From the IMG/VR virus record IMGVR_UViG_3300037493_001625, positions 1-28,732 of that record: a stretch of 28,732 nucleotides of DNA, one strand, 5' to 3'. The notes below the pieces were generated by a model that had not been told where the DNA came from, did not search any database, and saw nothing but the letters and a program-made list of their open reading frames with translations. The translations under genes and the position numbers were made by a program. Positions 6,334-14,791 of the stretch are shown here, in pieces; the first letter of the stretch is position 1, and each line of letters opens with the position of its first letter. This DNA comes from a virus.

Positions 6334-6476
6334 ACGAAGAACAAGTAAGATATTTAAGAATGGAACTAGCAAAGGCAACTGATCCTAAAAGAAGACAAGA
6401 ATTAAAAGAACAACTGGATAAGTTAGATGAAGGTCTAGGTGAAATTAGTGAGAAACAAACTTTATTGGTGGAATGA
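6327..6476 (+). CDS. Small charged helical protein between nrdB and nrdA
   Basis: 49 residues. It overlaps the end of nrdB by 7 bases and the start of nrdA by 1 to 4 bases, so it is part of the operon. The sequence is nearly all helix-forming, with many Glu, Lys and Arg residues (RRQELKEQLDKLDE), and no hydrophobic core. No family recognised. It could simply keep translation coupled between the two reductase genes, or be a small partner of them; nothing decides this. Confidence 0.5.
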   Translation: MVNEEQVRYLRMELAKATDPKRRQELKEQLDKLDEGLGEISEKQTLLVE

Positions 6477-8182
6477 TGGTAAAATTTAAAAGTATATACG
6501 ATGAATTAGGAGAAGAACGCAAGCAACTCCAGTCTGAATGCATGTTACCTGAATGGGTAACTACACCTGCATATCAGATGCTCAAAGAGAATTATCTTTC
6601 AAAAGATTATCCAGATTTGAAATCAGTTTATACACGTGTAGCCTCACATGCAGCAAAGTATACATCAAATCAAATATTATGGGAAAATAAGTTCTTTAAT
6701 CTATTATGGAATGGTTACCTGGCAGCTTCTACTCCTGTATTATCTAATATGGGTACTGGAATTGGATGTCCTGTAAGTTGTTCAGGTGGATTCCTTGAAG
6801 ATTCTGTTTATTCATTTTATGGTGCTCAACAAGAAGCTGCAGTTCTATCAAAAAATGGATTTGGTACATCTGGTTATTTAGGAGCAATCAGACCTAGAGG
6901 TGCTAAGATTGCCGGTATTAAAGGTGCTGCTTCAGGTGTATTACCAGTTTTTAAAGACTTTGTGCAAATGTCAAGAGATATTAGTCAAGGTTCTCAAAGA
7001 CGAGGGGCTTGGGCAGGTTATATTGAAATAGATCATAATGATTTTTATGAATTAGTTAACTATATTAATAAAAATCCAGATGATGCTAATATTGGTTGGA
7101 ATATTTCAGATGAATTTATTGCTAGATTAGAAGCAGGTGATAAAGATGCTATTGAGAGATACCAAAAAGCATTAAAGTTAAAGATGGTCACAGGTAAAGG
7201 ATATTTTAATTTCATTGACAAAGTCAATAAACAAAATCCTCAAATGTATAAAGATAGAAATCTTACTGTAAAAGCAAGTAATCTATGTACAGAAATTGCA
7301 TTATTTTCAGATGAAGAACATACCTTTTCTTGTGTATTATCTTCAATGAATGCAAGTCTATATGATGAATGGAAAGATACAGATGCTGTTTTTGATGCTA
7401 CAGTATTTTTAGATTGTGTTAATTCAGACTTAATTGAAATAGGTAAACGAACTCCAGGCATGGAAAAGGTAGTTCGTTTTGCTGAAAAGAGTAGAGCATT
7501 AGGTTTAGGTCTATTAGGATTTCATACGTATTTGCAAGACCATATGATTGCTTTTGAATCAATGGAAGCATACTTTAAGAATGGCGAAATATTCCAACAT
7601 CTAGATTCAGAGTCTAAAAGAGCTACTGAATGGATGGCAAAAGAATGGGGTTCACCATTATGGTGTAAAGGTTATGGAGTTAGAAATACACATAGAATAG
7701 CCATTGCACCTAACCTTAGTTCTGCTTTAATATGTGGTTCTGTTAGTCAGGGAATTGAACCAATATATAAGAATGCATATGTACAAAATACATCTGCCGG
7801 CAAAATGGAACGGGTTAATCCATCTTTATTAAAAGTAATGAAAGATAAAGATGTATATTCACAAGAAACTATAAAAGATATTATTAGTCATAATGGTTCA
7901 GTTCAACATGTTGAATGGTTGACTAAAGATGAGAAATCAGTATTTAAAACTGCATTTGAAATTGACCAAAAACAAATTATTCGTTTAGCTTCCGGTAGAC
8001 AAAGATATATAGACCAAGCACAAAGTATTAATTTGTTCTTTTCTGCCGATGAAAATGAAGAATATATTTCTGAAGTACATAAACTGGCATTTCTTGATCC
8101 ATATATAAAGAGTCTATACTATATACGTAGTGAATCAGGAGTAAATGTTAGTAAAGGTGAATGTACTAGTTGTCACGGATAA
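6476..8182 (+). CDS. nrdA: Ribonucleotide reductase class I alpha subunit NrdA, no ATP-cone
   Basis: 568 residues from ATG 6476 (GGTGG upstream fits this start better than ATG 6473). It reduces ribonucleotides to deoxyribonucleotides with NrdB. Visible catalytic parts, numbered from this start: C102 and C286 as the redox pair, N269-L-C271-x-E273 as the thiyl radical site, the Y548-Y549 pair of the radical path, and the C-terminal C563xxC566 that re-reduces the active site. E. coli NrdA is about 760 residues. The N-terminal ATP-cone is missing, so the enzyme should not be shut off by dATP through that domain; the specificity-site region appears present. Confidence 0.93.
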   Translation: MVKFKSIYDELGEERKQLQSECMLPEWVTTPAYQMLKENYLSKDYPDLKSVYTRVASHAAKYTSNQILWENKFFNLLWNGYLAASTPVLSNMGTGIGCPVSCSGGFLEDSVYSFYGAQQEAAVLSKNGFGTSGYLGAIRPRGAKIAGIKGAASGVLPVFKDFVQMSRDISQGSQRRGAWAGYIEIDHNDFYELVNYINKNPDDANIGWNISDEFIARLEAGDKDAIERYQKALKLKMVTGKGYFNFIDKVNKQNPQMYKDRNLTVKASNLCTEIALFSDEEHTFSCVLSSMNASLYDEWKDTDAVFDATVFLDCVNSDLIEIGKRTPGMEKVVRFAEKSRALGLGLLGFHTYLQDHMIAFESMEAYFKNGEIFQHLDSESKRATEWMAKEWGSPLWCKGYGVRNTHRIAIAPNLSSALICGSVSQGIEPIYKNAYVQNTSAGKMERVNPSLLKVMKDKDVYSQETIKDIISHNGSVQHVEWLTKDEKSVFKTAFEIDQKQIIRLASGRQRYIDQAQSINLFFSADENEEYISEVHKLAFLDPYIKSLYYIRSESGVNVSKGECTSCHG

Positions 8183-13106: not shown

Positions 13107-13131
13107 TCCTTGATAGCTCAGTGGTAGAGCG
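13107..13131 (+). tRNA. tRNA-Asn(GUU), 5' part of a split gene
   Basis: Acceptor strand TCCTTGA (13107-13113), TA, then a D arm GCTC-AGTGGTA-GAGC and G26. The acceptor strand is the exact complement of TCAAGGA at 13928-13934. Joined to 13888-13938 it gives a canonical 76-nt tRNA. After G26 the sequence (AATTTTTGAA) does not form an anticodon stem, so this fragment cannot function alone. Confidence 0.8.
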
Positions 13132-13143
13132 AATTTTTGAAAT

Positions 13144-13233
13144 GTATAAATAGATGTAGTTAGAGAAATGCTAGTAACATTTCTCAACTCGGCTACGGAT
13201 TAACCTAGCTGTCCTACACAAATCTATTTATAC
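13144..13233 (+). promoter_or_regulatory. Late promoter within a long translation-control hairpin
   Basis: GTATAAATAGAT (13144-13155) pairs perfectly over 12 bp with ATCTATTTATAC (13222-13233), which ends next to GGGTG, the likely ribosome binding site of the endonuclease gene. The left arm contains TATAAATA (13145-13152), the T4 late promoter octamer. Inside are GTAG/CTAC and two hairpins, GAGAAATG/CATTTCTC (13163-13185) and CGGCTA/TAGCTG (13190-13211), making a three-way junction. A transcript begun at the late promoter would lack the left arm. Confidence 0.55.
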
Positions 13234-13243
13234 GGGTGTCAAA

Positions 13244-13855
13244 ATGCAACATTGTAAATTTTGCGACAAAGAATGTAAAAATGATAATTCATTAAGAAAT
13301 CATCAAAGGTTATGTCCTAAAAATGATGATAGAGTATATGTTAATGGTATGACTGGTAAGAAAGGAGGAAACCAGTATACAAAAGCAGAGAAATTAGGAT
13401 TACCTAAACCTATAATTTCACTTGAAACAAGTAAAAAACTTAGCGATTCTGTATTATCTCGTTCGAAAAACTGGCAAGAAATAAACGGTAAAAAGATTAG
13501 CAAAACTGTAAATGAAAAAGTTGCTAATGGTGAATGGCATACTTCTTTAGCAAAACATATGCATATAGATTACAATGGTGTTGATATGCATGGAAATTGG
13601 GAATTACAATATGCTATAGATTTGGACTCTAAAAATATAAAATGGATTAAATGTAAAGAAAGTTTTGGATATATATTTGAAGGAAAACCTAGACGATATA
13701 CACCAGATTTTTATTTAATTGAGACTGATGAATATATAGAAATAAAAGGTTATAAAACAGAAAAAGATGACGTTAAATGGTCTCAATTTCCAAAAGATAA
13801 AGTTCTAAAAGTGTTAATGAAAAATGAATTAACACTTTTAGGGATAAAATTATAG
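13244..13855 (+). CDS. PD-(D/E)XK homing-type endonuclease with N-terminal zinc finger
   Basis: 203 residues. An N-terminal zinc finger has C4xxC7 and H20xxxC24. Then comes GMTGKKGGNQYTKAEKLG (35-52), a basic motif common in phage homing endonucleases. The C-terminal domain has E120 (GNWE), P154-D155 (RYTPDFYL) and E166-I-K168 (YIEIKGY), the PD-(D/E)XK nuclease triad. The family includes I-Ssp6803I, which is encoded in a cyanobacterial tRNA-fMet intron; the tRNA location here is parallel. It lies inside the split tRNA-Asn. The ribosome binding site is weak (GGGTG, 5 bases) and next to the arm of a 12-bp hairpin, so expression is probably held back until late infection. Confidence 0.75.
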   Translation: MQHCKFCDKECKNDNSLRNHQRLCPKNDDRVYVNGMTGKKGGNQYTKAEKLGLPKPIISLETSKKLSDSVLSRSKNWQEINGKKISKTVNEKVANGEWHTSLAKHMHIDYNGVDMHGNWELQYAIDLDSKNIKWIKCKESFGYIFEGKPRRYTPDFYLIETDEYIEIKGYKTEKDDVKWSQFPKDKVLKVLMKNELTLLGIKL

Positions 13856-13887
13856 TTTATTCCCTCTTAGCGATCATGGTGAATGCG

Positions 13888-13938
13888 CTCCGCTGTTAAC
13901 GGAGAATGAGGTTGGTTCGAGCCCATCTCAAGGAGCCA
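13888..13938 (+). tRNA. tRNA-Asn(GUU), 3' part of a split gene
   Basis: Anticodon stem CTCCG/CGGAG (13888-13892, 13900-13904) with loop CTGTTAA, anticodon GTT. Then variable AATGAG, T arm GTTGG-TTCGAGC-CCATC with one T-T mismatch, acceptor strand TCAAGGA, discriminator G and encoded CCA (13936-13938). The acceptor strand pairs 7 of 7 with the fragment at 13107 but only 4 of 7 with TCCCTCT at 13861-13867 immediately upstream. Confidence 0.85.
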
Positions 13939-13943
13939 ATTTT

Positions 13944-14017
13944 GCGGGATTAGTTTAATGGTAAAACTGGAGTTTTCCAAACTTCTGTCATCAGTTCGAT
14001 TCTGATATCCCGCTCCA
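13944..14017 (+). tRNA. tRNA-Gly(UCC)
   Basis: 74 nt with acceptor GCGGGAT/ATCCCGC, D arm GTTT/AAAC, anticodon loop TTTCCAA (anticodon TCC), T loop TTCGATT and encoded CCA. The following AATT resembles the AATTTT spacers between the other tRNAs. Confidence 0.93.
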
Positions 14018-14117
14018 AATTAATCGTTTGTGAAGTTTTTAAACGAAAGTAAAACACTACAGTCTGGCATGGGACTGATAATTGGTGGGGTAAGAGTCCT
14101 TAAATATGTCCCTAATT
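14018..14117 (+). ncRNA. Structured 100-nt unit A of a tandem pair
   Basis: Closed by AATTA/TAATT (14018-14022, 14113-14117). Inside: hairpin TCGTTT/AAACGA (14024-14046); helix CACTA/TGGTG (14055-14059, 14083-14087) stacked on CAGTC/GACTG (14060-14077) with loop TGGCATGG and a one-sided ATAAT bulge; then GGGTAAGAGTCC (14088-14099), whose GGG can pair with CCC before the closing strand. It is homologous to unit B, and stem differences keep pairing. It is not a tRNA: no anticodon arm of 7-nt loop, no CCA. Confidence 0.6.
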
Positions 14118-14123
14118 AAAAAG

Positions 14124-14223
14124 AATTAATCGGAGTAATTACCCGAAAAGTAAGGCACCACAAGCGTTGGCACATCGCTTGATAAAATGGTGGGGTAAGA
14201 GTCCCTGACCTGTGTCTCTAATT
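14124..14223 (+). ncRNA. Structured 100-nt unit B of a tandem pair
   Basis: Same length and plan as unit A: closing AATTA/TAATT (14124-14128, 14219-14223), hairpin TCGG/CCGA (14130-14146), helix CACCA/TGGTG (14156-14160, 14188-14192) on CAAGCG/CGCTTG (14161-14181) with loop TTGGCACAT and bulge ATAAAA, then the identical GGGTAAGAGTCC (14193-14204). The stems have changed on both strands compared with unit A, while loop TGGCA, bulge and 3' core are kept. Confidence 0.6.
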
Positions 14224-14228
14224 TTAAT

Positions 14229-14307
14229 AAAACACATTAGATAGACCTACTGAGTCGAGTCTAACTGCTGGAGCCAGAAATGGGGTATCGTAAGGCTAGT
14301 GTGTTTT
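14229..14307 (+). ncRNA. Structured 79-nt element closed by a 12-bp helix
   Basis: AAAACACATTAG (14229-14240) pairs with CTAGTGTGTTTT (14296-14307), 12 pairs with a single U.G. The interior has TAGAC/GTCTA (14242-14246, 14259-14263) and a small CTG/CAG hairpin (14268-14277). It has tRNA-like length but no tRNA arms or CCA. Confidence 0.5.
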
Positions 14308-14310
14308 CTT

Positions 14311-14374
14311 AAATGTATTTGTAATTGATTAGGTTACCTATGGAGATAGTTCCTAATTACGTATAAGTACATTT
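14311..14374 (+). ncRNA. 64-nt long hairpin before tRNA-Thr
   Basis: Two 23-base arms, 14311-14333 and 14352-14374, pair over nearly their whole length: AAATGTA/TACATTT and ATTAGG/CCTAAT at the ends, with two G.U pairs and a short internal loop between. The tip carries CTAT-GGAG-ATAG (14338-14349). No T-run follows, so it is not a standard terminator. It could be a processing signal or a small RNA. Confidence 0.5.
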
Positions 14375-14383
14375 AAATAGTTT

Positions 14384-14458
14384 GCTCCCTAAGCATAAGT
14401 GGCGATGCAGTTGACTTGTAATCATCATAAATCGGTTCGATTCCGGTAGGGAGCTCCA
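14384..14458 (+). tRNA. tRNA-Thr(UGU)
   Basis: 75 nt, acceptor GCTCCCT/AGGGAGC, D arm GCAT/ATGC, anticodon loop CTTGTAA (anticodon TGT), T loop TTCGATT, encoded CCA. The anticodon stem GTTGA/TCATC has one T-T mismatch. Confidence 0.9.
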
Positions 14459-14465
14459 AAATTAT

Positions 14466-14540
14466 GTCCCTATCGTCTAGCGGTTAGGATATTGGACTTT
14501 CAATCCAATAACATGAGTTCGAATCTCATTAGGGACACCA
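14466..14540 (+). tRNA. tRNA-Glu(UUC)
   Basis: 75 nt, acceptor GTCCCTA/TAGGGAC, anticodon stem TTGGA/TCCAA with loop CTTTCAA (anticodon TTC), T loop TTCGAAT, encoded CCA. Confidence 0.93.
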
Positions 14541-14546
14541 ATTTTA

Positions 14547-14621
14547 GGTTCTATAGTATATTGGTTAGTATAACGCTCTGTCACAGCGTAGAGATGGGTT
14601 CAATTCCCATTAGAACCGCCA
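14547..14621 (+). tRNA. tRNA-Asp(GUC)
   Basis: 75 nt, acceptor GGTTCTA/TAGAACC, anticodon stem ACGCT/AGCGT with loop CTGTCAC (anticodon GTC), T arm TGGG-TTCAATT-CCCA, discriminator G, encoded CCA. The D stem is weak. Confidence 0.9.
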
Positions 14622-14627
14622 ATTTTT

Positions 14628-14704
14628 CTCCTATTAGCGCAGTCTGGTAGCGCATTCCGTTTGGGGCGGAAGGGTCGGAGGTTCAAATCCTTCATAGGAG
14701 ACCA
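14628..14704 (+). tRNA. tRNA-Pro(UGG)
   Basis: 77 nt, acceptor CTCCTAT/ATAGGAG, D arm GCGC/GCGC, anticodon stem TTCCG/CGGAA with loop TTTGGGG (anticodon TGG), T loop TTCAAAT, encoded CCA. Confidence 0.92.
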
Positions 14705-14710
14705 ATTTTA

Positions 14711-14769
14711 GGGGTCTACCAGTGGTAGAAGTCCGTTTCCGCTATCGCTCGGAACATAATAAGCGACCA
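14711..14769 (+). other. Degenerate tRNA-like unit ending in CCA
   Basis: 59 bases between AATTTTA and ATTTTA spacers like those around the real tRNAs, ending GACCA. It has a hairpin TCTACC-AGT-GGTAGA and either TTCCG/CGGAA or TCGCT/AGCGA, which exclude each other. There is no T arm and no paired acceptor. It looks like a decayed or recombined tRNA gene that kept its 3' end. Confidence 0.4.
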
Positions 14770-14791
14770 ATTTTATAACATGAGGTGAATT

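Follow-up and report, generated by a model that had tools for sequence, protein, structure and literature searches.

Phage tRNA arrays carry a conserved group of non-tRNA elements that is most aptly regarded as a new RNA family of putative function, and a published candidate list with this motif may exist. Two members lie in the window, the 28,732-nucleotide stretch of DNA analyzed here, whose source is a 28.7-kb viral record of tailed-phage type by gene content. The family is outside Rfam 15, although at least 45 viral contigs contain it, some of them from phages larger than 300 kb. The comparisons described below show that it is conserved in diverse phages and that its position and orientation among tRNA genes are constant. 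The original prediction, which singled out two adjoining 100-nt units inside a tRNA array, captured something real and understated it.

The window encodes ribonucleotide reductase, GroES-like, head-protein and endonuclease-like genes together with six tRNA calls (13861-14704), which are on the plus strand throughout. The two units are located between tRNA-Gly and tRNA-Thr and consist of the following parts:

13944-14017, plus strand: tRNA-Gly(TCC), the neighbor upstream of the units in the array
14018-14117, plus strand: unit 1, whole, 100 nt, directly 3' of tRNA-Gly; covariance model match at 14042-14117, 62.5 bits
14024-14046, plus strand: unit 1 P2 hairpin, TCGTTT (14024-14029) with AAACGA (14041-14046); varies among relatives, where it is optional
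14046-14054, plus strand: unit 1 purine junction AAAGUAAAA, conserved; RNase P CR-III-like AGUAAR-C
14055-14058, plus strand: unit 1 P3 5' strand CACU, partner GGUG at 14084-14087; covariation
14060-14077, plus strand: unit 1 P4 hairpin CAGUC...GACUG, its loop containing the pseudoknot strand GGCAU (14066-14070)
14084-14087, plus strand: unit 1 P3 3' strand GGUG; covariation
14088-14100, plus strand: unit 1 P5 T-loop hairpin GGG[UAAGAGU]CCU, RNase P CR-II-like
14106-14110, plus strand: unit 1 pseudoknot 3' strand AUGUC, loop-tail pairing
14124-14223, plus strand: unit 2, whole, 100 nt; covariance model match at 14143-14223, 72.9 bits
14130-14146, plus strand: unit 2 P2 hairpin, TCGG (14130-14133) with CCGA (14143-14146)
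14147-14155, plus strand: unit 2 junction AAAGUAAGG
14156-14159, plus strand: unit 2 P3 5' strand CACC, partner GGUG at 14189-14192; covariation
14161-14181, plus strand: unit 2 P4 hairpin CAAGCG...CGCUUG, its loop containing the pseudoknot strand GGCACA (14169-14174)
14189-14192, plus strand: unit 2 P3 3' strand GGUG; covariation
14193-14205, plus strand: unit 2 P5 T-loop hairpin GGG[UAAGAGU]CCC; covariation
14211-14216, plus strand: unit 2 pseudoknot 3' strand UGUGUC, loop-tail pairing
14384-14458, plus strand: tRNA-Thr(TGT), the next tRNA called downstream of the units

Separated by a 6-nt spacer (AAAAAG), the units share the 16-mer GGTGGGGTAAGAGTCC, which has two matches in the window at up to 3 mismatches, while its reversed control has none. 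The contrasts between their stems can all be read in the sequence as first described: P2 is TCGTTT/AAACGA in unit 1 versus TCGG/CCGA in unit 2, P4 is CAGTC/GACTG versus CAAGCG/CGCTTG, and either CACT or CACC faces GGTG. Two further traits on which the original prediction relied are true of both units and carry less meaning than was assigned to them. Firstly, the AATTA...TAATT ends are probably spacer, as their pairing is unconserved among relatives, and a terminal stem was consequently rejected. Secondly, the exact 100-nt length is incidental, since relatives measure about 97-130 nt. The ORF listing contains no reading frame of at least 40 codons across the two units, where frames are short or interrupted only. 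The folding energies of the single sequences are not significant (z of -0.33 and -1.56 for units 1 and 2, respectively), and the case for structure therefore rests upon comparison rather than energy.

Relatives were sought by scanning IMG/VR with the 16-mer and several relaxed gapped patterns, and three criteria distinguished them from chance matches: covariance models (R1, built from 9 units, and R2, built from 42 aligned matches; E-values are rough), a complementary stem closing the T-loop, and a pseudoknot whose strands match. Homologous units, many of them related by descent, were identified in no fewer than 44 further IMG/VR contigs, with 1 to 4 units per contig, and the carriers include records of 340-434 kb (those of L013, L017 and L094). 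Several distinct unit types can occur in one array, with four in L021 and three each in L010, L011 and L338. Pattern matches in coding sequence, such as the L261 group, were dismissed as false positives, having either no matching P5 or pseudoknot or no tRNAs; L073, by eye a thioredoxin-like frame, and L283, a terminator-like hairpin, were likewise discarded. A BLAST search with several subfamilies as queries, covering 50,697 phage records, returned tRNA among the matches listed and no relatives, R2 found no match in the genomes of 13 named phages (T4, T5, KVP40, RaK2 and CcrColossus among them), and no cultured phage with a unit was found.

The order of elements among these sequences is conserved: an optional P2, the junction AG[U/A]AAR, the P3 5' strand, the P4 hairpin, the P3 3' strand, the P5 T-loop hairpin and a tail. 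P3 occurs as CACC/GGUG, CACU/AGUG, CAUC/GAUG, CACG/CGUG and CUCA/UGAG, and the P5 stem surrounds UAARAGY as GGG/CCC, GGG/CCU, CAG/CUG or CGG/CCG. In an alignment of 42 rows, which was fitted to the model and is thereby biased towards the structure, compensatory changes are found at 5 of the 7 P3 and P5 pairs, standard pairing occupies 98.9% of the P3/P5 pair cells and 24 cells have changed on both sides. None of 500 shuffles of the same alignment reached the observed P3/P5 values of pairing, double change or covariation, and sliding the pairing partners by 1-3 columns abolished the signal. Furthermore, neither the P5 stem changes nor the CAUC/GAUG change was demanded by the searches that found them. 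Together with the covarying pseudoknot described below, these results strongly support the earlier proposal that selection acts on the structure of an RNA.

The P5 loop has the consensus U-A-N-R-A-G-Y among 42 sequences with an invariant closing G-C, although most of the T-loop and parts of the core were preset in the search patterns, such that their conservation is partly a product of ascertainment. The resulting G[UANRAGY]C is of the same kind as the loop of tRNA T-arms, for which the consensus is UNNRANY. Natural variants are UAAGAGU, UAAAAGU, UAGAAGC and UACAAGU, the latter two of which came from weak model matches rather than from patterns. Junction type tracks T-loop type, with AGAAAA accompanying UAAAAGU and AGUAAR accompanying UAAGAGY, a correlation confounded by descent.

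P4 and the pseudoknot were tested sequence by sequence, because early MAFFT alignments misplaced P4 in the diverse members. The TGGCA loop common to both units proved to be more than a shared motif, as the P4 loop that includes it pairs with the 3' tail in a pseudoknot that the first reading had missed. The pairs are GGCAU/AUGUC in unit 1 and GGCACA/UGUGUC in unit 2, and those in relatives include GGGAGAUA/UAUCUCCC, GACUUGUCG/CGGCGAGUC, UUCCAAUA/UAUUGGAA and AGGAGGAU/GUCCUCCU. Among 21 distinct loop-tail sets, the pairing of each loop with its own tail was equaled in none of 100,000 permutations. The comparisons accordingly show P3, P4, the P5 T-loop hairpin and the loop-tail pseudoknot as the fold of the family. 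The 3' tail misfits its own P4 loop in L022:2706-2783 and L088:810-886 and matches another unit type, and these two are probable recombinants between units.

P2 varies freely and seems to be absent in some relatives, such as L284, in which the upstream tRNA abuts the junction. In seven loci (L004, L005, L015, L017, L128, L130 and L131), the P2 hairpin GTGGAAAGCAAGAGCCAC is identical while the remainder of the unit diverges, which suggests a possible separate role for P2 in these phages. In a separate subfamily (L012, L024 and L116), the P2 loop GUUCGAAA is that of a canonical tRNA T-arm, yielding two T-loop hairpins per unit.

Each of the 42 units whose surroundings were tested has tRNA genes no more than 2.5 kb away, and the 238 unit-tRNA neighbor pairs within this distance are all on the same strand, with none opposite. 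A downstream tRNA starts within 5 nt of 16 of these 42 units, often at 3-5 nt, and several units begin at or right after a tRNA 3' end; for unit 2 and many relatives, the upstream tRNA is about 100 nt or more away. Unit neighborhoods exhibit no clear specificity for the identity of the adjacent tRNA. Given the shared strand and tight spacing, the units take up positions equivalent to tRNA slots, an arrangement in favor of co-transcription and of processing in common with the tRNAs. Presumably, the unit RNA would be transcribed with the tRNAs and excised by the same nucleases.

Alternatively, the units could themselves do the cutting, either as a self-cleaving ribozyme of a new kind or as a cis processing element acting on the polycistronic tRNA transcript. 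Such a role has precedent in the theta ribozymes, which are HDV-like, tRNA-associated and found in phage tRNA regions (Kienbeck et al. 2024, PMC10879173). Tenancy of tRNA-sized slots on the tRNA strand, often with the next tRNA only a few (3-5) nucleotides on, would suit this role, and compactness, a pseudoknot and a short invariant core are features typical of small ribozymes. We nevertheless consider it improbable, as the distance to tRNA 3' ends is not fixed, unit 2 in the window follows unit 1, and Rfam ribozymes were unmatched even at E values up to 10. In addition, the processing of tRNA arrays is normally the work of host RNases E, P and Z. Least credible by a wide margin is that a unit is a theta ribozyme proper, which would generate the mature 3' end of tRNA-Gly upstream. 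Theta ribozymes (PMC10879173) are similarly small, pseudoknotted and encoded in phage tRNA regions on the same strand as the tRNAs, and unit 1 does start directly after tRNA-Gly. However, only unit 1 in the window lies close enough (within 5 nt) to the 3' end of a tRNA for the expected cleavage site, unlike unit 2, which adjoins no tRNA, and many relatives. The units also differ in fold and core, their cleavage-site position relative to tRNA 3' ends would not be fixed, their 5' end forms its own P2 with no GC-rich P1 from the tRNA 3' end, their pseudoknot strand lies in a hairpin loop, and HDV models did not match them. The nested double pseudoknot of theta/HDV ribozymes was rejected as a fold, since the unit 5' end has only weak A/T-rich pairings and no HDV-family match.

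The view that the units belong to no known riboswitch or ribozyme class holds against Rfam 15, which matched only tRNAs in the window, with the units unmatched at both gathering and relaxed thresholds (E up to 10), and likewise only tRNAs over nine relative loci. RNase P RNA models (RF00010/RF00011) did not match the units at gathering thresholds or at E up to 10, and reciprocally R1 and R2 did not match the RNase P loci L110, L139, L145, L158 and L201. A T-box riboswitch was rejected because there is no RF00230 match and the units sit inside tRNA arrays. Neither ARAGORN nor RF00005 recognizes the units as tRNA, and the T4 region L138 and genome NC_000866 are unmatched by R1 and R2, which speaks against T4 species 1/2 RNA. 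By these tests, the units are not RNase P RNA, T-box, theta ribozyme, T4 species 1/2 RNA or tRNA.

A looser relationship to tRNA is conceivable, in which the T-loop hairpin of a mimic or decoy is recognized by tRNA enzymes or by host tRNA-targeting defenses. P5 has a canonical tRNA-like T-loop, G[UAARAGY]C, the unit ends resemble tRNA slots, and L012 and L116 additionally possess GUUCGAAA as in tRNA T-arms. Despite this, the units lack an acceptor arm, an anticodon arm and a CCA end, they escape ARAGORN and the Rfam tRNA model, and their AAAG junction and pseudoknot have no counterpart in tRNA, all of which makes mimicry quite unlikely.

A more informative parallel arose when a relaxed core pattern was run over prokaryote genomes, where RNase P RNA accounted for at least 114 of 119 stretches among the matches listed. 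Their CR-II is GGUGGGGUAAGAGCCC and their CR-III is GG[CU]AA[AG]CCCCACC, which by our own mapping are the two T-loops of type A RNAs; the unit counterparts are GGUGGGGUAAGAG[UC]CC and AG[U/A]AA[AG]..CACC, respectively. In RNase P, CR-II and CR-III fold into a pair of interleaved T-loops, against which the tRNA elbow stacks (PMC6565675, PMC8704770). Like P11 of the type A (RF00010) specificity domain, the units carry both a CR-II segment (GGUGNGGUAAGAG-YCC) and a CR-III-like segment ([AG]G[NU]AA[AG]C), and with these they flank a short CACC/GGUG-type helix in the same polarity, AG[U/A]AAR preceding CACC and GGUG preceding GGGUAAGAGYCC. The differences are also considerable. The halves are circularly permuted in the units, with the helix closed by a hairpin, and P2, if present, replaces the hairpin preceding CR-III. 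The units of about 100 nt have no catalytic domain, lacking the core formed by CR-I (GAGGAAAGUCC) and P4 as well as CR-IV/V, and a CR-I test separates the 114 RNase P stretches from the others. They add the loop-tail pseudoknot, and covariance models do not cross-match. Moreover, the GGUGGG strand of RNase P pairs downstream with CCCACC, whereas the unit GGUG pairs upstream, and the identity across the full core is therefore partly coincidental.

Based upon these segments, their shared polarity and the reuse of the same double T-loop motif by T-box stem I and the L1 stalk (PMC4919913, PMC4810234), we place first, albeit tentatively and at somewhat under even chances, the interpretation that the units are phage RNAs co-transcribed with tRNAs that dock on tRNA elbows. 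The AGUAAR-C junction and the UAARAGY T-loop flank P3 with the polarity of CR-III and CR-II around P11. Together they may form an interdigitated double T-loop, the flat face of which would stack on the elbow, and the RNA could then act in trans as a small tRNA holder, for example by shielding or sequestering tRNAs during infection. This folding and stacking are less secure than co-transcription. P5 is canonical, but the second candidate T-loop, AG[U/A]AAR-C, is only partly T-loop-like, with U as its first residue in about half of the units and A in the others, and the proximity of the two is deduced from P3. If the double T-loop reading is right, the units share an elbow-docking motif with T-box stem I (RF00230) and the L1 stalk of 23S rRNA. 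They differ from T-boxes in not being upstream of amino-acid genes and in having no specifier loop or antiterminator, and from both as stand-alone elements in tRNA arrays with no Rfam match. The coexistence of distinct types in one array, as in L021, suggests different partners or roles. It is possible, with slightly less confidence than docking itself, that the units constitute a fourth independently arisen elbow-docking class after RNase P, T-box and the L1 stalk, one that is virus-encoded, comes in sets of types and acts in trans. Elbow docking would mean that phages make dedicated tRNA-handling RNAs, which are then candidates for guarding or redirecting tRNAs against host tRNA-cutting defenses, and it would fulfill the prediction by reviews that further double T-loop cases exist in viral transcriptomes (PMC4919913, PMC4810234).

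A further argument against elbow docking is that T-loops are general tertiary-contact modules for which tRNA binding is not required. The units may instead be stable structured RNAs that are made from a tRNA operon and interact with a protein or with some other RNA, with the T-loop serving only to hold their own fold, for example by receiving the AAAG junction. T-loops often make intramolecular contacts, and the pseudoknot and T-loop give a compact, probably stable fold. The T4 tRNA cluster yields two such stable non-tRNA RNAs (annotated in X03016), the RNAs C and D (species 1/2) that the original prediction had offered as potential kin. This kinship is unsupported: R1 and R2 miss the T4 tRNA region and genome, the T4 sequences have no unit core and no covariance-model similarity, and the likeness reduces to an analogy of location. 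As stable RNAs of this sort, the units would be functional analogues of the T4 RNAs rather than homologues. The stable RNA interpretation also leaves unexplained why the units match both of the RNase P segments that bind the elbow, and with the same polarity around a helix, and we judge it rather unlikely, though less so than cleavage or mimicry. Whatever their role, the units give phage tRNA arrays a conserved component other than tRNA, which can be tested as an RNA of about 80 nt with a defined core.

The window and related loci contain several other elements. A three-way-junction hairpin of about 94 nt (13145-13238), whose 5' arm includes TATAAATA, a T4-type late promoter, lies just 5' of a homing-endonuclease-like ORF (13244-13855), an arrangement that we take to resemble the late-promoter/RBS-hairpin control of T4 I-TevI. 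The element also occurs in L001, L021:5857, L022:4089 and L097:4790; it precedes a different ORF in L021, and in L097 it forms a fusion with the half of a unit that contains the T-loop. Immediately upstream, a tRNA 5' half (13107-13141; Rfam tRNA, 20 bits) breaks off near the anticodon loop, stopping at the hairpin element and endonuclease ORF, and represents an interrupted or dead tRNA. Downstream of unit 2 are two non-tRNA structured segments, one at 14224-14316 with a long hairpin (AAAACACATTAG..CTAGTGTGTTTT), the start of which also follows a unit in L009, and another at 14316-14384 with a second hairpin. The segment at 14711-14776 resembles a tRNA remnant (GGGGTCTACCAGTGGTAGA...GCGACCAATTTT) and is uncalled by ARAGORN and Rfam. 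Three IMG/VR loci (L125, L126 and L135) contain apparent bacterial RNase P RNA stretches, which are likely host sequence or misassigned contigs. Lastly, the ribonucleotide reductase large subunit of the window (6473-8182) is 61-63% identical to proteins of Vibrio phage vB_CoeS_P1 and Pseudomonas phage PA11, which hints at a gammaproteobacterial host.
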